From: Palaeococcus ferrophilus DSM 13482
GTDB lineage: Archaea; Methanobacteriota_B; Thermococci; Thermococcales; Thermococcaceae
Direction: 5' to 3'
Assembly: GCF_000966265.1 (NCBI RefSeq)
Contig: NZ_LANF01000009.1
Location: 124,001 to 188,000, forward strand
Length of the DNA: 64,000 nucleotides
A model generated the notes under the pieces. The model saw only the letters and a list, made by a program, of their open reading frames with translations, did no database searches and was not told the DNA's origin. Both the position numbers and the translations under genes were made by a program. Of the stretch, positions 31,282 through 58,415 are shown piece by piece. Each line of letters begins with the position of its first letter. Within the stretch, counting starts at the first letter, position 1.

Positions 31282-31331
31282 AATTGTGGAGCCCCGGGCG
31301 GGATTTGAACCCGCGGCCTGCGGATTACAAG
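31282..31331. repeat. attL, 50-bp direct repeat (3' tRNA-Thr fragment)
   Basis: Identical over 50 bases to 56761-56810; the flanking bases differ on both sides (T versus C before, A versus T after). It covers the T arm, the acceptor 3' strand, CCA and five bases beyond, up to the anticodon loop. There is no tRNA 5' half on this side. Confidence 0.95.
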
Positions 31332-32165
31332 AGCGTCATCGCACTTAAAACGCTAAACGAAGTGTGGAACCATGAGAAAAAGGCTTTTTTGGAATGGCTT
31401 TCCCTCAAAATTGGCAGAGAAAGGACAGTGAAGGACTACTACAACGCGCTAAAGGTAATGTTCAAAGACTATGAAGTCAGGCCTACTAAAAAGAGTATCA
31501 AGAATGCTATTGACGCGCTCGGGAATAAGAAAAGGTACGTCTACGGCCTCAGGAACTTTCTGAAATATCTCACAGAAAAAGAACTCATCAACGAGGACTT
31601 CTCGAAAATGCTTCAAGGAGCAGCAAAAGCAAAGAAGAGCGGCGTGAGAGAAGTCCACCTCAACGACCACGAAATCACTGAGGCATGGCAGCATGTCAAA
31701 AACCGCCGCGAAGAGGCTCAGATGCTCTTCAAGGCGATGGTATTCTCAGGGATTCGCCTCGCGCAGCTCATCAGAATGTTCAAGACCTACGATCCGGCCA
31801 GGCTCCAGTTCCCGCTTGAGGGCATTGCTAGATACCCCATCAAGGACATATCTGAGGGTAAGAAAAAGGGCTTTTGGGCGTACTTCCCGGCCGACCTCGT
31901 GCCAGAACTAAGGAGATTTTCAGCGAAGGAAACGACAGCGTGGAAATGGGTTCGCTACGGGCGCGTTTCGGCAAACAGTATCAGGAAGTGGCACTACACC
32001 TTTTTGATACGGAAGGGCGTTCCTGCTGACCTCGCGGACTTCATTCAGGGGCGTGAGGCCGAAACGGTCGGAGCTCGGCACTACCTCAACAAGACGCTTC
32101 TCGCGGATGAGTGGTATTCCACGGTTGTTGATGACCTGAAGAAAGTCTTGGAGGGTGAAAAATGA
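31284..32165 (+). CDS. IntC, catalytic part of a split tyrosine recombinase
   Basis: The frame opens at TTG 31284 inside attL; the first 16 codons are the att-encoded peptide WSPGRDLNPRPADYK, followed by 277 residues unique to this side. They form the core-binding and catalytic domains of an archaeal tyrosine integrase: the first Arg in MVFSGIRLAQLIRMF, the His/Arg box in KWHYTFLIRKG, and the probable nucleophile Tyr in GARHYLNKTL. Joined in frame to intN at the right end it would make a 349-aa integrase. In the integrated state it has no proper start site, so it is probably silent and the integration is self-limiting. Confidence 0.9.
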   Translation: MWSPGRDLNPRPADYKSVIALKTLNEVWNHEKKAFLEWLSLKIGRERTVKDYYNALKVMFKDYEVRPTKKSIKNAIDALGNKKRYVYGLRNFLKYLTEKELINEDFSKMLQGAAKAKKSGVREVHLNDHEITEAWQHVKNRREEAQMLFKAMVFSGIRLAQLIRMFKTYDPARLQFPLEGIARYPIKDISEGKKKGFWAYFPADLVPELRRFSAKETTAWKWVRYGRVSANSIRKWHYTFLIRKGVPADLADFIQGREAETVGARHYLNKTLLADEWYSTVVDDLKKVLEGEK

Positions 32166-36175: not shown

Positions 36176-37750
36176 ATGAGGGCCCTTCCAGCGACTTTCA
36201 TTATCTTCATTGTCCTTCTTTCTTCCTTCAGTGTTGCAGTAGCTGACAGCAGCTTCAACGAGACCATCAGCACGCCTGCCTTGGAGATGCCTTCTCTCAC
36301 GATTTCAGATTACGTGAACAAAGCTCTCATCACGCTCAAGGCCTGGCGTTTCGACAGCACCGGCCTAATTGAGACTAACACGGGAATCTACGTTGATAAA
36401 AGGTTTTGGGACTGGCTTTCAGGCTCAATCCAAGAGAGCGCCAACCTCACCGACACGGCCCTCAAATGGGCTCAGGTGTTCAACCAGAAGGTTCAGAACG
36501 ATGAACCAATCCAGTGGATCTTTATCACCTGGACAAAGCCGAACGAGAGGCTCAAGGAAGCCCTTGAAGCCCTCGGAGCTGAGGTGCTTTACGTTGACGA
36601 CGACATCAATGCCATCTCGCTCAAGGCGAAGCCCTCGCTCATCAAGAACCTCGTATATTCACAGGCATTCGACTTTGATTATCGCTTCTACATCCGCGAG
36701 GTCTGGCCCGACCTCTACGTCGAGACCGGCCCCACGATCTTGGAGAATGAGACCACATTCACTCCGGCTAACGTGACAATTACCCCTGAACAGGTTTCCG
36801 GCGCAATCTGGAATATCAAGCTCGTTAAGGCTGACCTCGCCTGGAGTAAGGAGGGCATAACAGGCAAGGGCGTCACGGTCGCGGTTCTTGATACCGGTGT
36901 GGACTGTGACCACGTGATGCTCCAGGGAGCTTGTGTGGGCTTTGAGAACTTTGTAACTGACGAGCCTGCCAAAGATTTGAACGGTCATGGAACCCACGTC
37001 GCCGGTATCATCGCAGGGAGGCCTACCAAAGTCACGTGGGAAGGAAAGCAGGTTTATGTGAGTGGTGTCGCTCCAGAGGCAAACATCCTCGCAGTCAAGG
37101 TTCTTGGCCAGAACGGCGGCGGCACGATGACGCAGATCATCCAGGGCCTCGACTATGTTGTCGAGTGGAAGAAAAAGCACCCCGGCGAGCCGATAGTTAT
37201 CAGCATGTCCCTTGGAAGTCCGTTCGGCTCTCCACGCGACCCGATGGTACAGAAGGTCGAGCAGATCATCAGGGAGGAGCACATTCCTGCGATTATTGCC
37301 GCAGGGAATGAGTTCGCAGTCATAGATTCTCCAGGACTTGCTTCGGGAGCCATTACAGTGGCTGCGGTGGATAGGGACATGAAAGTGGCGGACTTCAGCG
37401 GAAAGGGGCCGGGCCTAAACATCTACGACATCAAACCCGACATCGCCGCACCAGGAGTGAAAATCCTCTCTGCAAAAGCAGGAACAAAGAACGAGTTCAT
37501 CGCAATGTCGGGAACCAGCATGGCTACTCCACATGTGAGCGGTGTCGTGGCGCTGATTTTGCAGAAGCATGGCGATTTGACTCCAGAGACGATCAAACTC
37601 ATTCTCGAAAAGACGGCCTACCCCTTGGATGGCATTGACGCCCTGCCAACGTGGTCAGGAGCCGGAGTGGTTGATGCCTACGCCGCGGTCAAAGCCGAAC
37701 CAAATGAAGCTGGAGGACTCATCGACTTCCTCAGGAGGTTGCTCGGATGA
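36176..37750 (+). CDS. Subtilisin-like serine protease
   Basis: A 524-aa secreted subtilase. Signal peptide at 1-24, a propeptide of about 180 residues, then the catalytic domain with all parts: Asp in VAVLDTGVDCDHV, His in DLNGHGTHVAGIIAG, oxyanion Asn in IIAAGNEF, Ser in SGTSMATPHVSGVVAL. Compared with host pyrolysin or Tk-subtilisin it lacks C-terminal beta-jelly-roll domains. Its place inside the block of secreted proteins suggests that it matures or releases a partner on the cell surface, or helps breach the S-layer. ATG 36176 follows AAGGGGGCCTGATCC. Confidence 0.92.
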   Translation: MRALPATFIIFIVLLSSFSVAVADSSFNETISTPALEMPSLTISDYVNKALITLKAWRFDSTGLIETNTGIYVDKRFWDWLSGSIQESANLTDTALKWAQVFNQKVQNDEPIQWIFITWTKPNERLKEALEALGAEVLYVDDDINAISLKAKPSLIKNLVYSQAFDFDYRFYIREVWPDLYVETGPTILENETTFTPANVTITPEQVSGAIWNIKLVKADLAWSKEGITGKGVTVAVLDTGVDCDHVMLQGACVGFENFVTDEPAKDLNGHGTHVAGIIAGRPTKVTWEGKQVYVSGVAPEANILAVKVLGQNGGGTMTQIIQGLDYVVEWKKKHPGEPIVISMSLGSPFGSPRDPMVQKVEQIIREEHIPAIIAAGNEFAVIDSPGLASGAITVAAVDRDMKVADFSGKGPGLNIYDIKPDIAAPGVKILSAKAGTKNEFIAMSGTSMATPHVSGVVALILQKHGDLTPETIKLILEKTAYPLDGIDALPTWSGAGVVDAYAAVKAEPNEAGGLIDFLRRLLG

Positions 37751-41510: not shown

Positions 41511-42056
41511 GTGGCGAACGGGTTAGTCCTAAGTAGGTTTGAGTATATCTCCCGTTTGAAGGCCGAAGCGGCCGAGGATGGGGAAGCCAAGTACCTAGAC
41601 CTCGCTCTTTCTCTCATGGAAAAGGCGACACAGCTTGAGGAGGAGATGGAAAAAGTCCCTGGCATTTACAAGGAGAAAAAGCTCGAAATTGCACTTTCCA
41701 CGATAGAGCAGTACAAGCAGGCAAACGAGCTCCTCATCAAGGCGATTTTGGTTGGCGAGAGTGCAGAGATGGCATTGAGAAAGCTCGAAAGGATGCTGAG
41801 TTCAAGAGCGACGCTGAGGACGAAGATTATCGCAGTCCTCTACGGTGAGACCGAACCAGTAGGCCCCTCCGAGCTCGCCGAGCGCTTCGGCATCTCGGCA
41901 CAGGCAGTACATCAGGCACTCCAGGAGCTCGACAAGCTTAAGGTCGTAGAGAAGGACGAGAAAGGCCACTACAAGCTCCGTGACGGCGTGATGGACGAGG
42001 TGTTTCGGCTTCTCTGGCAGAGCGTTGCAGAGCTCAAGGCGAGGGGAGGCGTATGA
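41511..42056 (+). CDS. Coiled-coil protein with C-terminal winged helix
   Basis: A 181-aa protein. The first 110 residues are helical and charged with coiled-coil character; residues about 105-165 form a winged helix-turn-helix (PVGPSELAERFGISAQAVHQALQELDKLKVVEKDEKGHYKL). Probably a DNA-binding regulator or an adaptor that brings DNA to the ATPase encoded next to it; the two genes overlap by four bases (ATGA). Start is GTG 41511 after GGGGGAGGTGAAAAT. Confidence 0.72.
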   Translation: MANGLVLSRFEYISRLKAEAAEDGEAKYLDLALSLMEKATQLEEEMEKVPGIYKEKKLEIALSTIEQYKQANELLIKAILVGESAEMALRKLERMLSSRATLRTKIIAVLYGETEPVGPSELAERFGISAQAVHQALQELDKLKVVEKDEKGHYKLRDGVMDEVFRLLWQSVAELKARGGV

Positions 42057-43306
42057 TGAGTGCATATCTCGACCGCTTCGTCGTCCAGCCGCAGGAAATC
42101 AAAATCGACCAGCCAAGAACTCATGCCGTGGGAATTACCCGAGGCAGGAATTTCGTTTACGTGTCCGCCGACATGGTGCATCGCTATATCTCCGGCCAGA
42201 CTAACGCAGGGAAAACCACCCTTGCACAGACGCTCATGGAAGTTGACTTCCTCCGTGGGCGAAAAGTCGTCGAGATAGAGCCTGCCCTTGAGGCGAAGAA
42301 CGAGAGAGCCTTCATGAATTTGCCAAACGATGACGATGTAATGCTCGAGGTCCTCAACAAGTACTTCCACCTTGAGCCAAGACCCTTCAAGGCCATCGTA
42401 TACTCTCCAGCGACGCGGAAGTACAGGGCTTTCATGAAGAACGACGAGGGGATCCGCTCGAAGTTCTACAAGTCGCTCAAAATCACCGAGCCCGACGTTG
42501 TAGACCTCATCCCGGCCATTTTCCCTGGTGGATCCATTGAAAGGCTCATCATCAACAAGGCATATAAGAAATACACTGAAGAGATCCGGCCAAAGAGGAA
42601 AGAGCGCTCTATATCAGAATTCCTGGAAGTCTTCGAGGAGGTCGGAAAAGAGGCAAACTTCAGCAGCTTCACCCTGCTCAAGCTCGAATACATAGCGAGC
42701 GTCCTCCACAGCAACGGAGAGTACAAAATAGATGAAATACTCAAGAAAAAAGACGAGATCAGCGTTTTCACGTTCACTTTCATAAGGGACCCGCTCGAAA
42801 GGTACCTGTGGGCCATGGCCATTCTCAACATTATCTATGACAGATGGGAGTATCTCAAGCGGAAAGAAGATATTCTGAGCTTCTATGTAGCCGATGCCCA
42901 TCTGCTCGCACCAAAGAAGAAGAAAGACATGATCGACACCCTCGCCAGGTACCAGGAGCGCATGAAACAGAACTTGCAAGTCTACTCAAGAATCTCGCGA
43001 GGAAAAGGGCTATTGTGGACATTTGACAGTCAGGAATTCGACGACCTTGACGATGTCGTGGTTGCACAGTGCCAAGAGAGGTTCATCAAACGCATGAGGA
43101 ACCGGGAAGTTGCCGACAGGCTGAAGCTCGACCACACAGAGCTGCGGAGGCTCGACAAGAAGTTCGCATACTTCGATGATGGCTACATGGTCAAGAAAAT
43201 CCTCGTCAGGCCACCCATGAGCCGGAAGGCCCGCTCCGGAGAATTTCTTCCGATACACTTCATCAAGGAATACGAGAGGTGGGAGAATGAGGAAGCGAAT
43301 TATTAG
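42053..43306 (+). CDS. P-loop ATPase, HerA/FtsK/VirB4-like
   Basis: A 417-aa ATPase with Walker A ISGQTNAGKTTLAQTL at residues about 45-60. A hydrophobic strand ending in Asp, ILSFYVADAHLLAP near residue 280, is the likely Walker B, though it has DA in place of the usual DE/DD. RGKGLLWTFDSQEFDDL resembles the sensor strand of HerA/FtsK proteins (hhhhTQxPxxL). Such ATPases pump DNA or energise conjugation and packaging. No membrane segment, so it would dock on a membrane partner, and it lies between two candidates (40407 and 43287). ATPases of this type are a conserved part of the pT26-2-like elements, as I recall. Confidence 0.75.
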   Translation: MMSAYLDRFVVQPQEIKIDQPRTHAVGITRGRNFVYVSADMVHRYISGQTNAGKTTLAQTLMEVDFLRGRKVVEIEPALEAKNERAFMNLPNDDDVMLEVLNKYFHLEPRPFKAIVYSPATRKYRAFMKNDEGIRSKFYKSLKITEPDVVDLIPAIFPGGSIERLIINKAYKKYTEEIRPKRKERSISEFLEVFEEVGKEANFSSFTLLKLEYIASVLHSNGEYKIDEILKKKDEISVFTFTFIRDPLERYLWAMAILNIIYDRWEYLKRKEDILSFYVADAHLLAPKKKKDMIDTLARYQERMKQNLQVYSRISRGKGLLWTFDSQEFDDLDDVVVAQCQERFIKRMRNREVADRLKLDHTELRRLDKKFAYFDDGYMVKKILVRPPMSRKARSGEFLPIHFIKEYERWENEEANY

Positions 43307-46899: not shown

Positions 46900-47422
46900 A
46901 TGAGAAAACGAGAGCTCATCTTATACTACTTAATTAAAAGGTTCTACGAAATATATAAGCACCCCCTCGAAGGTCGTAAAAAAACTTCAAAAGTTAATAT
47001 TCTTAGTCGAGCATTTTGACTTGGATACGAGCAGAATAGTTCCTTCTTCTGGAATCACAGGATATAAGTTTAAAATTTGGTATTATGGCCCATATTCAAG
47101 TGATCTCAAAGAGGATACCGATAATTTAGTAAAAGAGGGCGTACTAAACGAGGACGTTAAATATCTCGATGACTTTTTGTACACAGATGAATCCCCCAAG
47201 AGACTGTATCTCTATTCCCCGAAAACTAAGATCAGAATTGAAAATAAGCTTGATAGGCAAACTATCCAAAAGATCGACAAAATACTAGAAAAATTTGGTA
47301 CCCAATCTCCATATGAGCTGGAGAAAACAGTGTCAAGCCTGCTGAATCTAGATCCTCTGAAAAAGCTGGAAGTGTGGGGGAAGTCATTAGATGAGTACAT
47401 CTCGTCCTCAAATACTAATTAA
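46900..47422 (+). CDS. YwgA-like protein, apparent +1 frameshift
   Basis: ATG 46900 (after GGGGGGAGACAT) opens MRKRELILYYLIKRFYEIYK and then meets a run of seven A (46978-46984). As written it stops at TGA 47017; with six A it continues as RKKLQKLIFLVEHFDLDTSR into the frame that runs to 47422, giving a 173-aa protein. RKKLQKLxFL and the following YYGPYSSDLKEDTDNLVKEG match the YwgA/DUF4065-like group seen in phage-associated and toxin-antitoxin settings. Base composition is much more AT-rich than the element's other genes. It overlaps the next gene by 32 bases. Confidence 0.6.
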
Positions 47423-48161
47423 ACAGAATAAACCATTACCCATTAATACCCCCTCTGGTGTTGCTAATGCGACGATAATCCCCAAGTCTAGAAAAAAGAG
47501 ATTATTAGAAACTATATGGGATCGGCTGGAGAGGGTTCCAGCAGACACACTTGAGAAACTGTTCTATATCTCCTGCAATCCTTCATCATTAGATTCAAGA
47601 CAAAAAAAGAAAATAAAAGATTATTCAAAGTCTGCACACAAAAAATTGGGTCTAGGACATAGTTGGGGCCCCAAAGAATTAGAAAAACTTGGAGATGCCT
47701 CATCTTTGTTTTCACTGATCTTGGCGAACAGTTTATCTAATGATTTGGCTGGACTTTCAATTATATCAGAACCTGAAATCGATATTGGGGGCCAAATAGA
47801 ATTTGACTATGCTATTGGAGTACATAATGGCCCCCATTTTAACTTGTTCCTACTTGCGGAATTAAAACGGTTCTCATCAGATAACAATCTGTATGAAGAT
47901 GTTAAGAAGGCGTTTAATAAATTTACAGAACTCCACAACGCAGGAGTGTATAGCTCTTTTCTTCTTCATCTGCATCTTAGTGAAGAACTCGAAAAAAAAG
48001 CTAAGACAATAAGGATAATAAAAGCTGCTGAAAATTTGTGGGAAAGATTATCAAACAAAAACAATTCGAAGTTGTATATTGTAATAACTAAATCCCCATA
48101 TAATACCTTTGTTAAAGATTTACGAGAGTTAACAACCATCATAGATAAATCTAAATTCTAA
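47391..48161 (+). CDS. Putative nuclease-like protein paired with the YwgA-like gene
   Basis: A 256-aa AT-rich gene. No family is certain, but SEPEIDIGGQIEFDYAIGV followed by NLFLLAELKRF has the D-(X)n-E-x-K arrangement of PD-(D/E)XK nucleases (Asp in EFDYAI, then ELK). The C-terminal half is helical and basic. ATG 47391 lies 32 bases inside the YwgA-like gene, an overlap typical of two-gene defence or toxin-antitoxin units. The pair was probably acquired separately from the rest of the element. Confidence 0.5.
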   Translation: MSTSRPQILIKQNKPLPINTPSGVANATIIPKSRKKRLLETIWDRLERVPADTLEKLFYISCNPSSLDSRQKKKIKDYSKSAHKKLGLGHSWGPKELEKLGDASSLFSLILANSLSNDLAGLSIISEPEIDIGGQIEFDYAIGVHNGPHFNLFLLAELKRFSSDNNLYEDVKKAFNKFTELHNAGVYSSFLLHLHLSEELEKKAKTIRIIKAAENLWERLSNKNNSKLYIVITKSPYNTFVKDLRELTTIIDKSKF

Positions 48162-51576: not shown

Positions 51577-51996
51577 ATGACAGAAGAGCCAGGGACCATC
51601 GAGCCACTAGCGAAATTCCACGCAAAAGTTTACGTTAAAGGACGGATTAGAATAATCAGTAACGAACGGGACTTTCTCGGGTTATCGGACGGAGATATTG
51701 TTAAATTGATCATCCGGACCCTCGATGAGAATAAACATCCGGTGCACCGGGCATATTTCGAGGGCATGTTAGTTTCTGGAGGCAATGTCACAATTCCCAA
51801 AGAACTCATAAATAAGCTCGGGATTAAAAAAGGGGATGTTGTGGAAGTCCTCATGATAGGTTATCAGAAACTGCATGAGATTATCCCCGAAGAACACTAC
51901 ATCTTGCTTAAACAGTACAGTTCTGGAAAGTTCAAACTCATCTCCGCTGCTGAAGAAAAACAATTGCTTGAGACTCTTACTTCTACTCTTTATTGA
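51577..51996 (+). CDS. AbrB/SpoVT-like transcription regulator
   Basis: A 139-aa protein with two swapped-hairpin DNA-binding motifs: VYVKGRIRIISNERDFLGLSDGDIVKL and MLVSGGNVTIPKELINKLGIKKGDVVEVL. Each has the AbrB pattern of a strand, x-I-P-x-x-L-x-x-x-L-G-I-K-x-G-D and a strand. A single chain with both would act without needing a partner subunit. ATG 51577 follows AGGAGGCGCAAGC. It is probably self-regulated through the inverted repeat in its leader. Confidence 0.75.
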   Translation: MTEEPGTIEPLAKFHAKVYVKGRIRIISNERDFLGLSDGDIVKLIIRTLDENKHPVHRAYFEGMLVSGGNVTIPKELINKLGIKKGDVVEVLMIGYQKLHEIIPEEHYILLKQYSSGKFKLISAAEEKQLLETLTSTLY

Positions 51997-52333
51997 ACAG
52001 CGAATTATATATATCTATAATTAATTCTTTAGAAAGAAGAAAGAAGAGAAGAGAAAAGTAATGTTTAGACCTCTCAGAAAGCCGGAATTTTGAAAAGTCA
52101 AATGTGATATCATTAATTCATAGTGATTAAAACTTTAGTTAGTAAAGTTGATGAATTAATTATCGCTATAAATAAATAATTCACCGCATTCCAAAACTGC
52201 TTTCGGATAACATATTCGATGTATTGTTCTGTTCAAGAACTTTGTTCAACTGGATTCATTAGTCCACGAAAGGTTTTTATAGTTTGGAACAAGAAATTTG
52301 TTCGAACAAAAATCTTGGCCTATGGTGATAAAG
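51997..52333 (+). promoter_or_regulatory. AT-rich region with repeated TTGTTC sites and promoter
   Basis: No gene in 337 bases. The left half is very AT-rich, with a purine run at 52031-52060. The right half has repeated half-sites: TTGTTC at 52224 and 52242, the palindrome GTTCAAGAAC (52231-52240), and GAACAA-N5-TTGTTC (52287-52303). The last sits directly after the TATA box GTTTTTATAG (52273-52282), where a repressor would block transcription. AT-rich DNA with iterated sites also fits a replication origin, but no replication gene is recognised next to it. Confidence 0.5.
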
Positions 52334-52513
52334 ATGGGAAGAGGGCGGCCTCGTAAGTATGGACCTGTGAAGCGAATTGGTTTCGAGCTACCCTATGAGA
52401 AGTATCTGGAAATGGACCGTGTTAGGGACGGCAAAACGTGGGCCGAGTTCTTCACCGACTTGTTTGAGTTCGCGAAAGCGCATGGCAAGTTCTCACAGGT
52501 TCAGGAGGTCTAA
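52334..52513 (+). CDS. Small DNA-binding protein, first gene of the right-hand operon
   Basis: A 59-aa protein with an AT-hook-like start (GRGRPRKYG) and a ribbon-helix-helix-like core (KRIGFELPYEKYLEMDRVRDGKTWAEFFTDLFEF). ATG 52334 is preceded by GGTGAT; upstream in-frame starts overlap the predicted operator. It probably represses its own operon through the TTGTTC/GAACAA sites. Confidence 0.65.
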   Translation: MGRGRPRKYGPVKRIGFELPYEKYLEMDRVRDGKTWAEFFTDLFEFAKAHGKFSQVQEV

Positions 52514-52515
52514 AG

Positions 52516-53181
52516 ATGGCAAGAAGAGGAGCCCCGAAGAGGCGCAAGGAACCCGTGGAGGAATGGCTCATCAGGTTAGAAGTCAGTTATGCCCGCAAGT
52601 TCGACGAGATGAGGGGCTCCCGCTCGAGGCCAGAGTTTCTGAAGAACCTTCTCGATGCAGCAACAATCGGAAATGTTGCCATGGTCCTCCGCGAGCGCGA
52701 TGAGTACAAGGCCGAGGCTGAGAAATGGCGGAAAGCCTACGAGACATCTGAATCAAAGAACCTCCGTCTCGAGCAAGAGGTTGAGAAGCTCCGCCTCATC
52801 AAACAGGTTCTCGAAGAAGAGAACCGCCAGCTCAAGGCGGAGAACGCGGAGCTGAGGAAGCAGCTGAAGATGAGTGCTCGCGAGCGCCGTGCTGAGGACT
52901 TCAAGCAGGAGCTCTACGAGGTCATTGACCGTTACGGCAGGAACGGCAGGATAAAGATGGTTGATCTCCTGAAGCGGCTTGGCTATTCTTCCGACCTCAT
53001 GAAGCGCGCAAAGACCCTCCTCGAGGAGTGGTTCGTGGAGGAGGACAATGTGCTCGTCTCGCAGGACCTTGGCCTCGTGGTGGAGAAGGATCCCCACTTT
53101 GGTGAGCTTGCTTGGGTGGTGAAGCGTATCGACTCCTTTCGTTCCCCAAAAGGAGTGATGGGGGTTGTGGCAGATGTCTGA
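52516..53181 (+). CDS. RHH, coiled-coil and winged-helix protein
   Basis: A 221-aa protein. The N-terminus (VEEWLIRLEVSYARKFDEMRG, SRPEFLKNLLDAA) resembles a ribbon-helix-helix unit. Residues about 60-120 are a strong coiled coil with a leucine heptad (LEQEVEKLRLIKQVLEEENRQL, then LKAENAELRKQLK). Residues about 130-215 look like a winged helix (YGRNGRIKMVDLLKRLGYSSDLMKRAKTLLEEWFV). Three basic nucleic-acid-binding elements suggest a DNA-organising or replication-initiation protein of the element. ATG two bases after the previous stop. Confidence 0.65.
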   Translation: MARRGAPKRRKEPVEEWLIRLEVSYARKFDEMRGSRSRPEFLKNLLDAATIGNVAMVLRERDEYKAEAEKWRKAYETSESKNLRLEQEVEKLRLIKQVLEEENRQLKAENAELRKQLKMSARERRAEDFKQELYEVIDRYGRNGRIKMVDLLKRLGYSSDLMKRAKTLLEEWFVEEDNVLVSQDLGLVVEKDPHFGELAWVVKRIDSFRSPKGVMGVVADV

Positions 53182-53311
53182 GCCTGGCTATTTGGAGGAG
53201 TTGTTGGAGATGCTGGAGAGTCCAGACGAGGAAGAGCGTTGGCTGGCTATGGGGTTGCTTGACGACCTCGAAGAGGATCTGTTCATAGAGCGGAGTTGGA
53301 GGGGTATTTGA
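53174..53311 (+). CDS. Very small acidic protein
   Basis: A 45-aa ORF with about 14 Glu/Asp (EPGYLEELLEMLESPDEEERW, GLLDDLEEDL), overlapping both neighbours. Very acidic small proteins on mobile elements sometimes mimic DNA, as in anti-restriction proteins; this is only a possibility here. Position within tightly coupled genes supports it as coding. Confidence 0.5.
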   Translation: MSEPGYLEELLEMLESPDEEERWLAMGLLDDLEEDLFIERSWRGI

Positions 53312-53547
53312 TGACCGCCGAGGCAGAGTTTTGGAGTTTCGTCGCTCGGGAGCGGGCGGCGTCCATGGAGCAGCCCGCGGAAGTCCCCACTTTGCTCGAG
53401 TACATCGAGCGCGAGCTCCGCGTGGCCCGCGATACCGCATTCCGCCTGACCGTCAGCAGGGCGAAGGGCGCGGAGTACTGGACGGGCTACGCGGACGCGC
53501 TTGAGGACTTGATGAAGAAGATTGAGAGAAGGGAGGTGAGGGCATGA
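53311..53547 (+). CDS. Small helical protein of unknown function
   Basis: A 78-aa soluble, helical protein (FWSFVARERAASMEQPAEV, EYIERELRVARDTAFRLTVSR). ATG 53311 overlaps the previous stop (TGATG); an upstream TTG is unlikely. High GC and codon pattern typical of the element. No family recognised. Confidence 0.55.
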   Translation: MTAEAEFWSFVARERAASMEQPAEVPTLLEYIERELRVARDTAFRLTVSRAKGAEYWTGYADALEDLMKKIERREVRA

Positions 53548-53726
53548 AGTGGAAGGTACGTGTTGCAGGGTATAAGGACTGGCATATTCGTCCTCTCGGA
53601 GGGCTTGGAGTTGTAGAAGGAGAGGAAGTGCAGGAAGTCATAGAAGTAGAGGCTGAAGACCGCTTTGAGGCGGCAGAGCTTGCAGAGAAGGAGTTCGAGA
53701 AGAAGGTTACTTTTTCGATGAGGTAG
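53544..53726 (+). CDS. Small protein, paralog pair member 1
   Basis: A 60-aa protein (MKWKVRVAGYKDW at the start, FEAAELAEKEFEKKVTF at the end) with a strand-helix pattern, similar to the next gene (MRWKVYFQYDAGDY, AEEAVERVKRKLREEFG). ATG 53544 overlaps the previous stop (ATGA). A single beta-alpha-beta unit; function unknown. Confidence 0.55.
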   Translation: MKWKVRVAGYKDWHIRPLGGLGVVEGEEVQEVIEVEAEDRFEAAELAEKEFEKKVTFSMR

Positions 53727-53757
53727 TGTGGGCGGAGCCGGTGGAGGAGGGTCGCCC

Positions 53758-53937
53758 ATGAGGTGGAAGGTGTATTTTCAGTACGATGCGGGGGACTATA
53801 TTGCAAAAGGGTGGTTTGCCCCCCGTGCAGAGAGGGCAGAAGAGGCTGTTGAGAGGGTCAAGAGAAAGCTGAGAGAGGAGTTTGGGATTGAAAAGCCCCT
53901 GATAACAAAAGTGCGCCCTGTGGGGGGTCGCTCATGA
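53758..53937 (+). CDS. Small protein, paralog pair member 2
   Basis: A 59-aa protein related to the preceding one: both start with a basic M-R/K-W-K-V strand and continue into an amphipathic helix. ATG 53758 is chosen because GGAGGAGGG is right upstream. Overlaps the next gene by four bases. Confidence 0.55.
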   Translation: MRWKVYFQYDAGDYIAKGWFAPRAERAEEAVERVKRKLREEFGIEKPLITKVRPVGGRS

Positions 53938-54425
53938 GCGAGGCGGCAGTCCAGGCGAAGTCTTTCCACGGCTATGATTTCCCCCTCTCAGCTTTTCCAA
54001 ACCAGCCGCGTTTCCTACCGCCGGAGGAGTGGCATGAGGTCACGAGGGAGGCGAGGGTGGAGCTTGAACCGCCGCTTGAGCTCGCAGAGTGGGATGACTC
54101 TATACCAGTTGTCTTCAAGAGGTACCGCGGCATGCGCCCGCCTGCGGAGCTTGCCGAGTGGATTGGGAAGCGGAAGAAAAAGCTCGTCTTCCGTTATGGC
54201 CCAAGCAAGGAGTTCCACCGCTACAATACCCTCCGCTATGCAATGCAGTGGAACTTTTACGCGGGTAGGATGGGGGACGCGCACCGGTTCGTGGTTCTCT
54301 TCGTCGAGTGGGTTCTCCCACGCGTGGGGTACTACTTCAGGAGCGTGGCGCGGGTGATGGTTGTGACTGTATCGCCCGAGGAGGTACACACCAGGATTGT
54401 CGCAGGGGGTGAGTTCCCGTGGTGA
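53934..54425 (+). CDS. Unknown basic protein in the dpdA-like operon
   Basis: A 163-aa protein, unrecognised. Proline- and aromatic-rich N-terminal half (FHGYDFPLSAFPNQPRFLPPEEW, LAEWDDSIPVVFKRYRGMRPP), and a more hydrophobic end (DAHRFVVLFVEWVLPRVGYYF). Not clearly a membrane protein. ATG 53934 overlaps the previous stop, and the stop overlaps the GTG of the zinc-ribbon gene, so it is translated with them. Confidence 0.55.
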   Translation: MSEAAVQAKSFHGYDFPLSAFPNQPRFLPPEEWHEVTREARVELEPPLELAEWDDSIPVVFKRYRGMRPPAELAEWIGKRKKKLVFRYGPSKEFHRYNTLRYAMQWNFYAGRMGDAHRFVVLFVEWVLPRVGYYFRSVARVMVVTVSPEEVHTRIVAGGEFPW

Positions 54426-54592
54426 CTGATTTCGTGCCTGCCTCTGACCTCTATGTTCGCATGCGCTGCCCTCGTTGCGGGGCGGTGGTGAAGGGGAAGC
54501 GGGGCTCGCCCCTCTACTGCCGCCGTTGCGGCGCGCTCCTCGACATGGACGGGCATCTTATCATGGTGATCCACGAGGTGGAGGGGTTCTGA
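54422..54592 (+). CDS. Small zinc-ribbon protein
   Basis: A 56-aa protein with two CxxC knuckles, RCPRCG and YCRRCG, 12 residues apart, a classic zinc ribbon. GTG 54422 overlaps the previous stop, and TGATG joins it to the DpdA-like gene. Since the DpdA-like protein lacks the zinc site of classical tRNA-guanine transglycosylases, this small protein may supply a DNA- or RNA-binding part; that is a guess from position. Confidence 0.65.
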   Translation: MTDFVPASDLYVRMRCPRCGAVVKGKRGSPLYCRRCGALLDMDGHLIMVIHEVEGF

Positions 54593-55377
54593 TGGTCGAG
54601 CTGTTCTTTTTCGGCGTTGGCGAGGGATCATCAAGGAAAGCGATAGAAAGCTTTGCTCCTCGCAAGTTCAACGTCATGATCAATTACGCCAGCGCGGTCA
54701 AGCCGGTTCCAAAAAACGTCAACAAGCTCTTCATCGACAGTGGGGGCTATAGCTTCTTCTTCAAGCTCAGAGAGTATCCTGATCCGCACGAGAAGTATCT
54801 TGAATTCGTGCTGAAAAAGAACGCGGACTTCTTCGCGAACAGAGACTATCCATGCGAGCCAGAGGTTCTCCGCCAGACTTGCCGCACCGTCATGGAGAAC
54901 CAGCTCAAGACTATCGAGAATCAAATCGCAATACAGGATCTCATTGAGGATCAGTATCCTGAGCTGAAAGACCGCTTCGTCGCAGTGGTCCAGGGATGGA
55001 CGCTCGACGACTACCTGCGCATGCTCGATGAGATGAAAAGTCAGGGGCTTCTCACGAGGCTAATTGGTATTGGTTCAGTCTGCAGGCGTGGGCAGGAAAA
55101 ACAGATTCGGCGCATTATCACTGCTCTTCGTGCAGAGCTCCCGCGTAAGTACGGGCTACATGCTTTTGGGGTGAAGTTCAGCGCTCTGAAGTACAAAGAC
55201 GTGTGGGACGCGTTATACTCGGCAGATAGCCTCGCGTACAGGTATGGCATTGACAGAGTCAAGGATCCGCGGCCGATTCCAGAACAGATCAAAGAATCTC
55301 TTGCGAAGTGGATCAGCCGGCTTGATGCCCTCGCGACGACCCACTCAAATCAGCTGAGCCTCATGGAGGTGATATGA
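54592..55377 (+). CDS. DpdA-like deazapurine DNA transglycosylase (TGT fold)
   Basis: A 261-aa protein with the pattern of the DpdA/TGT superfamily, which swaps guanine for a 7-deazaguanine base. LFIDSGGYSFF (residues 46-56) equals the TGT DSGGFQ active-site motif, VVQGWTLDDYLRML (132-145) and LIGIGSVCRRG (157-167) are typical of phage and genomic-island DpdA, HAFGVK lies at 190-195, and YSADSLAYRY (209-218) holds the probable nucleophile Asp212. The C-terminal zinc site of tRNA enzymes is absent, which fits the DNA-acting branch. The precursor (preQ0 or a relative) could come from the host archaeosine pathway. ATG 54592 overlaps the zinc-ribbon stop; the next gene is a predicted nuclease. 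Confidence 0.78.
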   Translation: MVELFFFGVGEGSSRKAIESFAPRKFNVMINYASAVKPVPKNVNKLFIDSGGYSFFFKLREYPDPHEKYLEFVLKKNADFFANRDYPCEPEVLRQTCRTVMENQLKTIENQIAIQDLIEDQYPELKDRFVAVVQGWTLDDYLRMLDEMKSQGLLTRLIGIGSVCRRGQEKQIRRIITALRAELPRKYGLHAFGVKFSALKYKDVWDALYSADSLAYRYGIDRVKDPRPIPEQIKESLAKWISRLDALATTHSNQLSLMEVI

Positions 55378-55916
55378 TGGCCTCACGGACTGCTTTCGTC
55401 TATGATTCCTCTCTTCCTCTCCACCAGCTTGAGACGTTCTTCATTCGCCACAGCAAGGACGTCTTCAACCGGCTGGAGTTCAGCCGCGCCCTCGAAGCGG
55501 CCAGGGCGCTCTCTGATCAAAAGCACTTCGTGAAGGTCATGGACATTGACGCGCTCGTGGTCGTGGATAACGTCATCAGGGCGGGCTTTGAGATCAAGAC
55601 GCTCCGGGAGAGCGTGGTGAACTACCGCGACGCTAACGGGTGGTATGTGAAGGTGAACGGCACTCAGTACAAGACTTACATGGATTTCGTAGCAAAGACG
55701 GGCATTGATGTCTATTACCTCATTCGCGTGCAGGGCTGGAGTGGGGTTTATTTCTACTTGTGGAGCGTCAAGCGGGCGCCGGTTCGCTTTGAGTGGCTTG
55801 GGAGCAGGGAGCACGAGACTTATGACTACTATGCTCTCATCAGGCGGGAGAAGGTGGCGAAGCTCGATGAGGAAGAGCTCGCGAAAACACTCAGAGACAT
55901 TCTACTCGGGAGGTGA
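55377..55916 (+). CDS. Predicted PD-(D/E)XK nuclease next to the DpdA-like gene
   Basis: A 179-aa protein. FVKVMDIDALVVVDNVIRAGFEIKTLRESV fits the PD-(D/E)XK core: Asp56/Asp58, then Glu72-Ile-Lys74 (E-x-K) after a hydrophobic strand. VYYLIRVQGWSGVYFYLWSV follows as the usual next strands. It could be a restriction-type enzyme cutting unmodified DNA, a Holliday-junction resolvase, or a repair nuclease. ATG 55377 has GGAGGTGAT upstream; it overlaps the DpdA-like stop by one base. Direct coupling supports a joint role with DNA modification. Confidence 0.62.
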   Translation: MASRTAFVYDSSLPLHQLETFFIRHSKDVFNRLEFSRALEAARALSDQKHFVKVMDIDALVVVDNVIRAGFEIKTLRESVVNYRDANGWYVKVNGTQYKTYMDFVAKTGIDVYYLIRVQGWSGVYFYLWSVKRAPVRFEWLGSREHETYDYYALIRREKVAKLDEEELAKTLRDILLGR

Positions 55917-55923
55917 CGGGGCG

Positions 55924-56135
55924 ATGACTCTTAATTTTCATACGAAAGTTAACAGCGATAATAACAGCATCGCGTTATTATCATTTTTCCCAAACTATCT
56001 TTCGCCGACAATCAAGGGTATTCGCCGGAAAACCGGGGATAATATACACCACCCGTACCTATTCCCCCCAACTCCCGAAGCGTCCTGGACGGTGAAAAAT
56101 ATGAATGTTGTAAACGAAATAATAGGGGTGGTATA
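55924..56135 (+). promoter_or_regulatory. Promoter/operator region with a 9-bp inverted repeat
   Basis: GATAATAAC (55957-55965), an 8-base spacer, and GTTATTATC (55974-55982) form a perfect inverted repeat. A TATA-like GATAATATAC lies near 56038-56047, in position to drive the gene at 56136. A 70-codon frame (ATG 55924 to 56136) crosses the region, but its composition (runs of Asn, Ile, Pro; no family) and the symmetric elements speak against coding. Probably the control site of the wHTH gene. Confidence 0.5.
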
Positions 56136-56489
56136 ATGCCACGCAAACGGAAGTTTCCCGACTATGTTTCGATCCGAGTTCCCGTATACCAACCGCCGAA
56201 CAGCGTTCTCGAACTCCTCTTCGATGGCAAGACTCTAGAGATAGCCAAGAGGGTCATCACATACCTCAAGCAGAACGGCGGCCTCTTCAAAGATGAGTAT
56301 CAGGAGGCCCTCGGCGTGGACGGTGCTGATAAGGTCATATACTTCAGAGTCATGAAGAAGCTCCTGGCCCTCGGCATGGTGAGGGAGGATGCTGGAGTGT
56401 ACAAGCTGGACGAGCGCTTCTCTGAAAGAATGGAAAACTTGGCCAAGATGTGGAAGTTCGAGATTGGCAAAGTCGCTGAGCTCTGGTGA
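56136..56489 (+). CDS. Winged-helix DNA-binding protein
   Basis: A 117-aa protein with a basic start (PRKRKFPDY) and a winged helix-turn-helix (LEIAKRVITYLKQNGGLFKDEYQEAL then DKVIYFRVMKKLLALGMVREDAGVYKL). It probably regulates the integrase gene directly downstream or its own promoter. ATG 56136 follows GGGGTGGTATA. Confidence 0.72.
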   Translation: MPRKRKFPDYVSIRVPVYQPPNSVLELLFDGKTLEIAKRVITYLKQNGGLFKDEYQEALGVDGADKVIYFRVMKKLLALGMVREDAGVYKLDERFSERMENLAKMWKFEIGKVAELW

Positions 56490-56547
56490 TGCCTCATGAC
56501 CGCAATGGCTATATCCAGTCCGCAGTTAGTATTTCAGTGTAGTCACA

Positions 56548-56566
56548 TGTGGCCACGTGTGGCCAC
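56548..56566. repeat. Two TGTGGCCAC direct repeats upstream of intN
   Basis: TGTGGCCAC at 56548-56556 and again at 56558-56566, one base apart (10-bp period, about one helical turn); each contains the palindrome GTGGCCAC. They lie 29 bases before intN ATG 56595 and overlap the expected promoter region, so they are probably an operator for a regulator on the element, perhaps the wHTH protein. Confidence 0.5.
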
Positions 56567-56594
56567 ACAATATTGGGCGGAGGAGGGCATTGAA

Positions 56595-56831
56595 ATGGCT
56601 AAAAGAAAGCCTAAAAGAGCACGTATACCAATCCATATTACGCTGAGTCCGCAGGTCATCGAACTCATGGATAAGGCCACTTATAACAGGAGCCGTTACA
56701 TAGAAGACGCCATTCTAATGAGGCTTTCACACGAGGGACGGTTTTTCAAAAGCGAAGGACAATTGTGGAGCCCCGGGCGGGATTTGAACCCGCGGCCTGC
56801 GGATTACAAGTCCGCCGCCCCGCCAGGCTAG
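56595..56831 (+). CDS. IntN, N-terminal part of the split integrase
   Basis: ATG 56595 follows GGAGGAGGG. The first 55 residues contain a basic start (AKRKPKRARIP) and a ribbon-helix-helix-like unit (IHITLSPQVIELMDKATYNRSRYIEDAIL). The att-encoded peptide WSPGRDLNPRPADYK comes next, ending at base 56810, and the frame then runs into the tRNA and stops at 56831. After excision residue 72 would be followed directly by the intC part. The fused 349-aa enzyme has an RHH domain before the recombinase, which may bind att or its own promoter. Confidence 0.85.
   Translation: MAKRKPKRARIPIHITLSPQVIELMDKATYNRSRYIEDAILMRLSHEGRFFKSEGQLWSPGRDLNPRPADYKSAAPPG
56761..56810. repeat. attR, 50-bp direct repeat within tRNA-Thr
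   Basis: Identical to attL (31282-31331). On this side it continues into the complete tRNA-Thr gene (5' half at 56811-56842), so the tRNA stays functional after integration. Confidence 0.95.
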
Positions 56832-56842
56832 GCTACCGGGGC
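56769..56842 (-). tRNA. tRNA-Thr (anticodon TGT), integration target
   Basis: A 74-nt tRNA. Acceptor GCCCCGG pairs with CCGGGGC; discriminator U as usual for archaeal tRNA-Thr; CCA encoded at 56766-56768. Anticodon arm CGGAC-TTGTAAT-CCG region gives loop CTTGTAA with anticodon TGT (ACA codon). T arm GCGGG-TTCAAAT-CCCGC. The 3' part is attR. Confidence 0.95.
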
Positions 56843-56886: not shown

Positions 56887-57750
56887 CTAAAGGTGCTCCT
56901 CCAGGAACTTCTTCACCCTGGCCTTCCACTCTCCGGGGCGGGAGTTGAGCGTCCTGACGTGGGCCGCATCCGTGACCCATAACTCCACTGTGGGGTTTAT
57001 CCTCCTGTTGCGCTCGTAGAACTCCCCCACTTCCTCAACCTTAACGAGCGGGTCCTTTTCTCCTGCTATGAGGAGGAGGGGCTTCCTGACCTTGTCGGCG
57101 TACTCTATCGGGTGGACTTCCTTTCCGCCGCTGAAGAGCTTCGTTAAGGGCTTAACGAAGATGTAGAGCCACTCCGGTAGTTTAGCGAAGTACTTCAAAC
57201 CGCGCGCCCCGGTCCTGTCGAGATTCATCGGCGGACTGTCAGCGACGCCGCAGCAGACCTCTGGAATTTCTGCAAGCGAGCGGATTGTCACCATAGCGCC
57301 CATCGAGAAGCCGATGAGTCCGATTTTGCTCGCTTTCTCTGGGTGGTTCTCCCCCAACCACCTAACGGCCGCCTTGATATCGAGCAGCTCCCTATCCCCC
57401 ACCGTCGTGTACTTACCCTCGCTCTTTCCGTGGGCGCGGAAGTCAAAGACGAGGACGTTGTAGCCCTCCTTCAGGAGGAACTCCACAGTCGGCTTCATGT
57501 AGAGCGAATACCACCTGCTCGCGGTGTAACCGTGGAGGGGTATGACGGTTTTATCGCTCCCGTTGTCAATCCACCAGCCGCTCAGCTTAAGGCCGTCTTC
57601 CGTTTCGAAGGTTACGTCCTCGTAGTCGAAGCCGAGGTCCTTCGGCGTCCACTCCTCGATCAACCTCGGGGGTTTCACCATCTTGTAGGCGACGAAGACA
57701 AGGAACGCGATAAAGACGAAGACTACAACCAGGATAACCTGCCATATCAT
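56887..57750 (-). CDS. Membrane-anchored alpha/beta hydrolase
   Basis: A 287-aa esterase/lysophospholipase-like enzyme. An N-terminal membrane segment (WQVILVVVFVFIAFLVFVAY) is followed by the alpha/beta hydrolase fold: oxyanion HGYTASR, nucleophile elbow GFSMG (Ser), acid in AGEKDPLV (Asp) and His in AAHVRTL. The active site probably faces the cytoplasm or outside depending on anchor orientation. Its start overlaps the stop of the HEPN gene by four bases, and it reads towards the tRNA. Substrate unknown. Confidence 0.85.
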   Translation of the reverse strand: MIWQVILVVVFVFIAFLVFVAYKMVKPPRLIEEWTPKDLGFDYEDVTFETEDGLKLSGWWIDNGSDKTVIPLHGYTASRWYSLYMKPTVEFLLKEGYNVLVFDFRAHGKSEGKYTTVGDRELLDIKAAVRWLGENHPEKASKIGLIGFSMGAMVTIRSLAEIPEVCCGVADSPPMNLDRTGARGLKYFAKLPEWLYIFVKPLTKLFSGGKEVHPIEYADKVRKPLLLIAGEKDPLVKVEEVGEFYERNRRINPTVELWVTDAAHVRTLNSRPGEWKARVKKFLEEHL

Positions 57751-58094
57751 TCTTCTCCCTCCAACTCCTTTAAGATTTCCTTAAATCTCCCCTCAAGGGG
57801 AGGGAGGTCTTTAACAATGGTTACCCACACAATCTCCGGGTTGATTCCAAAATATCCGTGGATGACCCTGTCCCGCATCGCGGCCATTGCCCTCCAGGGT
57901 ACGTCAGGATACTTCTCCCGTATCTCCTTGGGAACACCCTTGGAAGCTTCACCTATGATTTCGATGCACCTGAGAACCGCATATATCGTCTTTTCATCTT
58001 TCACGAAATCTTGGAGGCTCATTCCTTCTGTAAACTCCCTAGCCTTTCTGATGTTTTCCAGTATGTCACGGATATAGAGGCGGTAGTCCCTCAT
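57747..58094 (-). CDS. HEPN toxin, HepT-like (DUF86)
   Basis: A 115-aa HepT-family protein. The RX4HXY motif, RDRVIHGY, marks the HEPN ribonuclease site; the helical frame (RLYIRDILENIRKAREFTEG, CIEIIGEASKGVPKEIREKYP) is typical. In known pairs MntA AMPylates or otherwise blocks HepT, so this is a type VII toxin-antitoxin module. It overlaps the partner gene by four bases. Confidence 0.9.
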   Translation of the reverse strand: MRDYRLYIRDILENIRKAREFTEGMSLQDFVKDEKTIYAVLRCIEIIGEASKGVPKEIREKYPDVPWRAMAAMRDRVIHGYFGINPEIVWVTIVKDLPPLEGRFKEILKELEGEE

Positions 58095-58384
58095 ATCTTA
58101 ATGGCCTCCTTTGAAACGCTCTCCCAGAGCTCTTTTCTGAGTGACTTTTTTGGTATAAGATCAACTTTTACTCCAAGAAGGTCTGAAAGTTCCGTCTGAA
58201 GTTTTGCGATCGTGAGGAGTCCAACTGGCTCTTTGAACTCCACGAGGATATCAACGTCGCTGGATTCTCCTGCCTCCTCCCTAGCGTAGGAACCAAAGAT
58301 CTCAATATCAATGACACCATATTTTTCTTCAAGCTCTCTCCTGTGATCCTTTAATATTGAGATGATTTCGGGGAGGGCTTTCAT
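58091..58384 (-). CDS. MNT-type minimal nucleotidyltransferase antitoxin
   Basis: A 97-aa nucleotidyltransferase. GSYAREEAGESSDVDILVEF contains the GSx10DxD active site, with both Asp kept, so it should be catalytically active. It is the cognate partner of the HEPN protein encoded directly after it. ATG 58384 follows TTGGTGAGACC; a further upstream in-frame start is less likely. Confidence 0.9.
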   Translation of the reverse strand: MKALPEIISILKDHRRELEEKYGVIDIEIFGSYAREEAGESSDVDILVEFKEPVGLLTIAKLQTELSDLLGVKVDLIPKKSLRKELWESVSKEAIKI

Positions 58385-58415
58385 AGGTCTCACCAAAAAA
58401 GATGGAAAAAATAAT

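Follow-up and report, generated by a model that had tools for sequence, protein, structure and literature searches.

Does the DpdA-like gene found in a 64,000-nt stretch of a Thermococcaceae genome (the window, to whose positions all coordinates refer) belong to a new DNA modification system, or does it act alone? The gene, an open reading frame (ORF) of 261 amino acids at 54592..55377 (+), lies on an integrated plasmid and overlaps a zinc ribbon gene on one side and the gene for a PD-(D/E)XK protein on the other. A preliminary description of the sequence had read the three genes as a minimal set, apparently new, in which a modifier is combined with a zinc ribbon and a nuclease. We consider it rather probable that this lone, minimal DpdA inserts preQ0 of the host into plasmid DNA as an anti-restriction measure, and that the nuclease and the zinc ribbon are not its dedicated partners.

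The 54592 gene is a member of the DpdA/TGT superfamily by profile, fold and active site, as had been proposed from its motifs. The FIDSGGY, VVQGW, GIGSVCRRG and SADS motifs were all present, and the protein scored 77.7 bits with the Pfam DpdA family PF23859 (E-value 9.5e-22; cut-off 27 bits), a cut-off also exceeded by the other Thermococcaceae copies, and matched the PHROG family phrog_1279 (1.8e-28). The match to the TGT family PF01702 was below the cut-off (E = 0.097, 12.2 bits against 26.3), and the PADLOC DpdA model did not call the protein (E = 0.012). Sequence searches of solved structures returned no TGT match for the DpdA and nothing for the nuclease, so predicted folds were needed for both. 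A confident AlphaFold model of the DpdA, built on a 36-sequence alignment (predicted local distance difference test, pLDDT, 93.5), had the TIM-barrel fold of the TGT type, and its Foldseek matches in the PDB were tRNA-guanine transglycosylases together with the DNA preQ0 insertase DpdA 7ui4 (E of about 5e-8, TMq 0.62). The 7ui4 chain is alike in fold but only 13% identical, and has 413 residues versus 261.

Residues D49, D85, Q134, G135, H190 and D212 were invariant across the 36 homologs. In an hhalign comparison with the archaeosine tRNA enzyme of the host (arcTGT), D49, Q134, H190 and D212 fell on the DSG, QG, HxFG and DSA motifs, respectively, while D85 lies in a BLASTP segment that pairs DYPCEP of the DpdA with DIPTPP of arcTGT. 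The invariant H190 is the putative counterpart of the conserved histidine (position 196 of DpdA) that tells DpdA from DpdA2. The homologs in other Thermococcaceae were 93, 89, 84 and 67% identical to the window copy, and dN/dS was 0.05–0.07 in comparisons with three close copies and 0.08 with a more divergent copy for which dS was near saturation, values that indicate strong purifying selection on the gene. The protein lacks the C-terminal extension of the 580-aa host arcTGT and, as had been noted before, the tRNA-enzyme zinc site: no CxC..CxxC..H arrangement was found, its only three cysteines being scattered (positions 88, 97 and 164). In the alignment, a C..H..C..C motif is retained there by most relatives from bacterial phages but is missing from the archaeal copies. 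Loss of the zinc site was therefore rejected as a general hallmark of DpdA, and appears from the alignment to be a trait of the archaeal clade.

Translational coupling of the three genes, the second element of the earlier proposal, is borne out by TGATG overlaps on both sides of the DpdA gene, at 54592 (zinc ribbon stop and DpdA start) and at 55377 (DpdA stop and nuclease ATG). The zinc ribbon gene (54419..54592, +; 57 amino acids, with an alternative start at 54422) is followed, beyond the DpdA gene, by that for the PD-(D/E)XK protein (55377..55916, +). The latter carries a D57xD59...E73xK75...Q98 motif that was invariant in 14 sequences, in keeping with the D...ExK signature, and matched the Holliday junction resolvase family PHROG 27407 (phrog_27407) over its full length (3.5e-27); all 14 plasmid copies of the nuclease also matched this family. 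Its AlphaFold model was of moderate confidence (pLDDT 75), and at that confidence Foldseek placed Hjc resolvases nearest (best E 3.1e-3); resolvase-like activity is predicted from profile and model. A profile scan of the genome contigs (alignment A4) gave two nuclease loci, and a search of phages and viral contigs found no member of the nuclease family.

A survey of 94 Thermococcaceae genomes showed that these genes are not constantly linked. The nuclease family was present in 20 genomes, 15 of them without DpdA, and PF23859 DpdA in six, five of which carried the two genes side by side. Gene order switched from Zn-DpdA-Nuc in the window to DpdA-Nuc in genome G084, Nuc-DpdA in G009 and G083 and Zn-Nuc-DpdA in G102, and in G088 a different gene occupies the nuclease slot beside DpdA. 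Sequence identities were likewise uncoupled: relative to the window copies, the G084 DpdA is 93% identical and its nuclease 37%, the corresponding values for G009 are 84% and 73%, and nucleases 71–73% identical to that of the window occur without DpdA in G069 and G020. Apart from the window genome, the family had close homologs of the zinc ribbon only in G102 and G017; in both they adjoin the nuclease, and in G102 alone are they near a DpdA cluster, as G017 has no DpdA and its zinc ribbon precedes a distant member of what seems to be the same nuclease family. Since the nuclease mostly occurs without DpdA, the order switches, a 93% identical DpdA accompanies a 37% identical nuclease and a zinc ribbon can stand next to the nuclease where DpdA is missing, the three genes are not a system, and the notion of a new minimal set was discarded. 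The homolog survey, including the G017 pairing, points instead to the zinc ribbon and the nuclease as the steadier companions and to DpdA as a mobile addition. The nuclease belongs generally to the module at the integrase end of Thermococcales plasmids. We also observed in the G009 element a Cas4/PDDEXK_1-type nuclease (L015:17445-18107, PF12705 1.4e-8) whose gene immediately precedes those for the Hjc-like nuclease and DpdA.

These data bear directly on whether DpdA marks the DNA of the element while its PD-(D/E)XK neighbour cuts unmarked competitors, in the manner of restriction-modification. The overlap of the two genes invites this reading, as does their adjacency in five of the six DpdA genomes when the nuclease is present in only 20 of 94 (p of about 0.0015 by hand arithmetic, uncorrected for relatedness), and a plasmid of Salinibaculum has a weak NucS-like match two genes past its DpdA. 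However, restriction-modification implies constant linkage and co-inheritance, and neither the variable order nor the uncoupled identities, as in G084, conform to this; in the 15 genomes that have the nuclease without DpdA an unprotected restriction enzyme would do harm. No nuclease of this family stands beside DpdA in G088, on a plasmid of Thermococcus nautili or in L063 and L065, the virus contigs most closely related, and the T. nautili gene downstream of DpdA (P0004) does not resemble the nuclease, nor did a search of 61 genomes yield any relative of it. Given also that the nuclease fold is closest to Hjc and that both genes may merely occupy a common accessory slot by the integrase, we regard such a pair as improbable. 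The excess of DpdA beside the nuclease is best explained by that shared slot at the integrase end, although DpdA may have some functional interplay with any member of the nuclease family.

What, then, would a lone DpdA do? Homologs of QueC (1.3e-60), QueD (1.3e-27) and arcTGT (1e-92) were identified in the host, and because the host has these preQ0 genes, anti-restriction modification with host preQ0 is the likeliest function. The 54592 product would be a TIM-barrel base-exchange enzyme, a mobile accessory gene product of integrated Thermococcales plasmids, that draws on the preQ0 which the host produces for the archaeosine of its tRNA, and swaps it for guanine in DNA. The resulting plasmid DNA would contain some 2'-deoxy-7-deazaguanine and be harder to cut for the restriction enzymes of the host or of a recipient. 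On the same model the PD-(D/E)XK protein would act as a general, Holliday-junction-resolvase-like nuclease in plasmid DNA processing, and the zinc ribbon as an occasional companion of the nuclease rather than of DpdA. Family, fold, intact active site, selection, occurrence on different elements and the preQ0 genes of the host are the observed starting points; DNA as the substrate, preQ0 as the base and protection as the benefit are inferred. DpdA is essential for insertion of 7-deazaguanine in phage CAjan, and the modifications protect phage DNA (PMC6884629), and plasmid entry in Thermococcus kodakarensis is strongly limited by restriction systems (PMC13385129).

The absence of dpdB-K partners from the element, remarked on in the preliminary description, agrees with our Pfam scans of the element proteins, in which no dpdB-K or preQ0 genes turned up, the dpd families not being searched one by one. 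The suggestion that preQ0 is borrowed from the host likewise fits the host genes, but it is not new. Lone phage DpdAs, such as those of Mycobacterium phage Orion and Salmonella phage 7-11, are a recognised group (group 3, Hutinet et al. 2019) for which borrowing of a host 7-deazaguanine precursor has already been stated (PMC6884629), and hijack of host preQ0 has been proposed for the lone DpdA of the archaeal virus HRTV-29 (PMC8651126). The window DpdA resembles the phage group in that the mobile genome around it has no gene for preQ0/G+ synthesis and in its expected dependence on host 7-deazaguanine, and its mycobacteriophage relatives belong to the same PF23859 and PHROG 1279 family. It differs from them in its position within a separate archaeal group, in lacking the C..H..C..C motif, in residing on a plasmid and in that its hosts are expected to make preQ0 for archaeosine. 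HRTV-29 is similarly an archaeal mobile element with DpdA alone, but it is a virus of halophiles; a tblastn search with the window DpdA recovered no halovirus, so that HRTV-29 is not a close relative if it was among the sequences searched.

Several points weigh against modification of plasmid DNA by this enzyme. Whether the substrate is DNA or RNA, and which base is inserted, cannot be read from the sequence. The canonical DpdA equivalog model NF041059 (NCBIfam) scored only 15.5 bits against a cut-off of 200, a further difference from 7ui4, and the absence of the zinc motif sets the window DpdA apart from its bacterial-phage relatives. McrBC-type modification-dependent systems in Thermococcales could punish modified DNA. 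The lone DpdA of Salmonella phage 7-11 gave dADG at about 0.02% of G, and that of Orion no modification, Orion having a host that makes no preQ0 (PMC6884629). An alternative is a diverged enzyme of TGT fold that acts on RNA or tRNA, or with another base, and whose target is translation or tRNA of the host instead of DNA. The fold matches tRNA enzymes and the DpdA 7ui4 alike, and lone DpdAs may have diverged in function (PMC6884629), yet the DpdA profile is far ahead of that for TGT, both the zinc motif and an arcTGT-like C-terminal extension are missing, the host already has its own arcTGT and the relatives examined reside on phages and plasmids; we therefore judge this alternative unlikely, though not negligible. 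It is very improbable that the gene is a non-functional bystander, a passenger with no present activity, since the active site is invariant in 36 homologs and dN/dS lies between 0.05 and 0.08, even though it stands alone and one tested lone-DpdA phage had no modification.

Relatives of the window DpdA were found on a 103-kb plasmid of T. nautili (55% identity), on haloarchaeal plasmids (30–42%), in a Methanofastidiosa virus (37%) and in metagenome virus contigs (up to 65%). At the DNA level, no similarity was found in phages, and among plasmids the sole match was a 466-bp segment of dpdA from T. nautili. With midpoint rooting, the archaeal-type DpdAs formed one group separate from those of bacterial phages, and no preQ0-pathway Pfam family was present among 87 ORFs around 13 related loci; DpdA is a lone cassette of an archaeal clade with no preQ0-synthesis genes nearby. 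DNA methylases and an inhibitor of Thoeris (Tad6) are encoded at single related loci, gene content that points to a counter-defence setting. On the Salinibaculum plasmid (L055:3980-6876) DpdA is followed by a GINS51-like protein (PF22090 4.9e-8) and then by a weak match to the NucS C-terminal domain, and on a Streptomyces plasmid (L062:2761-4814) a DpdA relative is followed by a protein of the PAPS-reductase family. A broader proposal, which we put forward tentatively and at slightly less than even chances, is that an archaeal clade of minimal zinc-less DpdAs, distributed over plasmids and viruses from Thermococcales, haloarchaea and Methanofastidiosa, exploits the pool of archaeosine precursor which archaea maintain for their tRNA, a single gene writing 7-deazaguanine into mobile DNA.

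The three genes had initially been described as part of a mobile-element operon at 52334-55916. The mobile element was upheld but not its extent, as the operon occupies only the right end of a plasmid of approximately 25.5 kb, integrated at 31282-56810 and bounded by an exact 50-bp repeat pair. The left copy of this attachment (att) repeat lies at 31282..31331 and the right copy at 56761..56810, overlapping the tRNA-Thr (TGT) gene that is the integration target (56766..56842, −). The C-terminal part of a split SSV-type (type I) integrase, int(C), is encoded at the left end (31284..32165, +; PF16795 2.3e-50) and the N-terminal part, int(N), at the right end (56595..56828, +). Because the two halves read through as a single 349-aa ORF when the element ends were joined in silico across att, we interpret the element as an SSV-type split-integrase integrant.

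The left half of the element encodes a plasmid core ATPase (42053..43306, +; 58.9% identical to that of pAMT11 and a pAMT11/TKV1 marker), an element-borne protease of the subtilisin family (36176-37750, PF00082 4.4e-58; annotated on pAMT11 as well) and surface-type proteins, which place it with the pAMT11/TKV1 plasmids, a family defined by a common core ATPase and gene set that the element shares. The core ATPase was also 47% identical to a protein near 73 kb in G029, presumed to belong to TKV1 of T. kodakarensis. The pT26-2 family, to which the split integrase and its tRNA target had first pointed, was ruled out by the core ATPase, which had no match in G020 and G066, presumed to be the genomes with PHV1 (Pyrococcus horikoshii) and TGV1 (Thermococcus gammatolerans), where the pT26-2 core (ATPase t26-14p) would be expected. 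Subtilisin and surface-protein genes are common to the element and pAMT11 (GQ254849), but pAMT11 has neither DpdA nor this nuclease family and carries a serine recombinase.

The conserved right-end module (51577-56828) begins with a gene for an AbrB/MazE-type DNA-binding protein (51577..51996, +; PF04014 9.1e-8), which has homologs in the same position at most of the related loci compared. It is followed by a module-conserved small putative DNA-binding protein (52298..52513, +; 71 amino acids) and a 221-aa coiled-coil protein (52516..53181, +; 76% identical to a G068 homolog), and a helix-turn-helix (HTH) protein (56136..56489, +; phrog_32591 2.7e-66) is kept between the nuclease/DpdA genes and the integrase. 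The same arrangement of AbrB, small DNA-binding protein, nuclease, HTH protein and int(N) was seen on elements with seemingly different left halves (pAMT11/TKV1 and pT26-2), which suggests exchange between plasmid families. Elsewhere in the element, an island of 39% GC (47021-48161, +) encodes a protein with a SocA/Panacea-type antitoxin domain (PF13274 3e-6), overlapped by a 256-aa protein whose EFDY...LLAELKRF stretch resembles a second PD-(D/E)XK site; the two are a possible toxin-antitoxin or defence pair. Just beyond the element (57747-58396, −) lie genes for a HEPN protein (HepT-like, PF01934 3.8e-31) and a nucleotidyltransferase (PF01909 2.9e-19), a predicted toxin-antitoxin pair of the HEPN-MNT type.

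The window DpdA is a further archaeal plasmid case of a lone DpdA, with an explanation that is ordinary but testable; the tempting view that the locus encodes a new system of modification and nuclease is unsupported and is corrected here. Should the enzyme be active, a single gene would suffice for hypermodification of archaeal plasmid DNA, since the base is at hand in the host, which produces it for its tRNAs, and this would explain the recurrence of lone DpdAs on archaeal plasmids and viruses. A direct test is possible in the genetically tractable T. kodakarensis, where restriction limits plasmid entry. If true, the broader proposal of an archaeal clade would mean that in Thermococcales DNA hypermodification takes place at hyperthermophilic temperatures.

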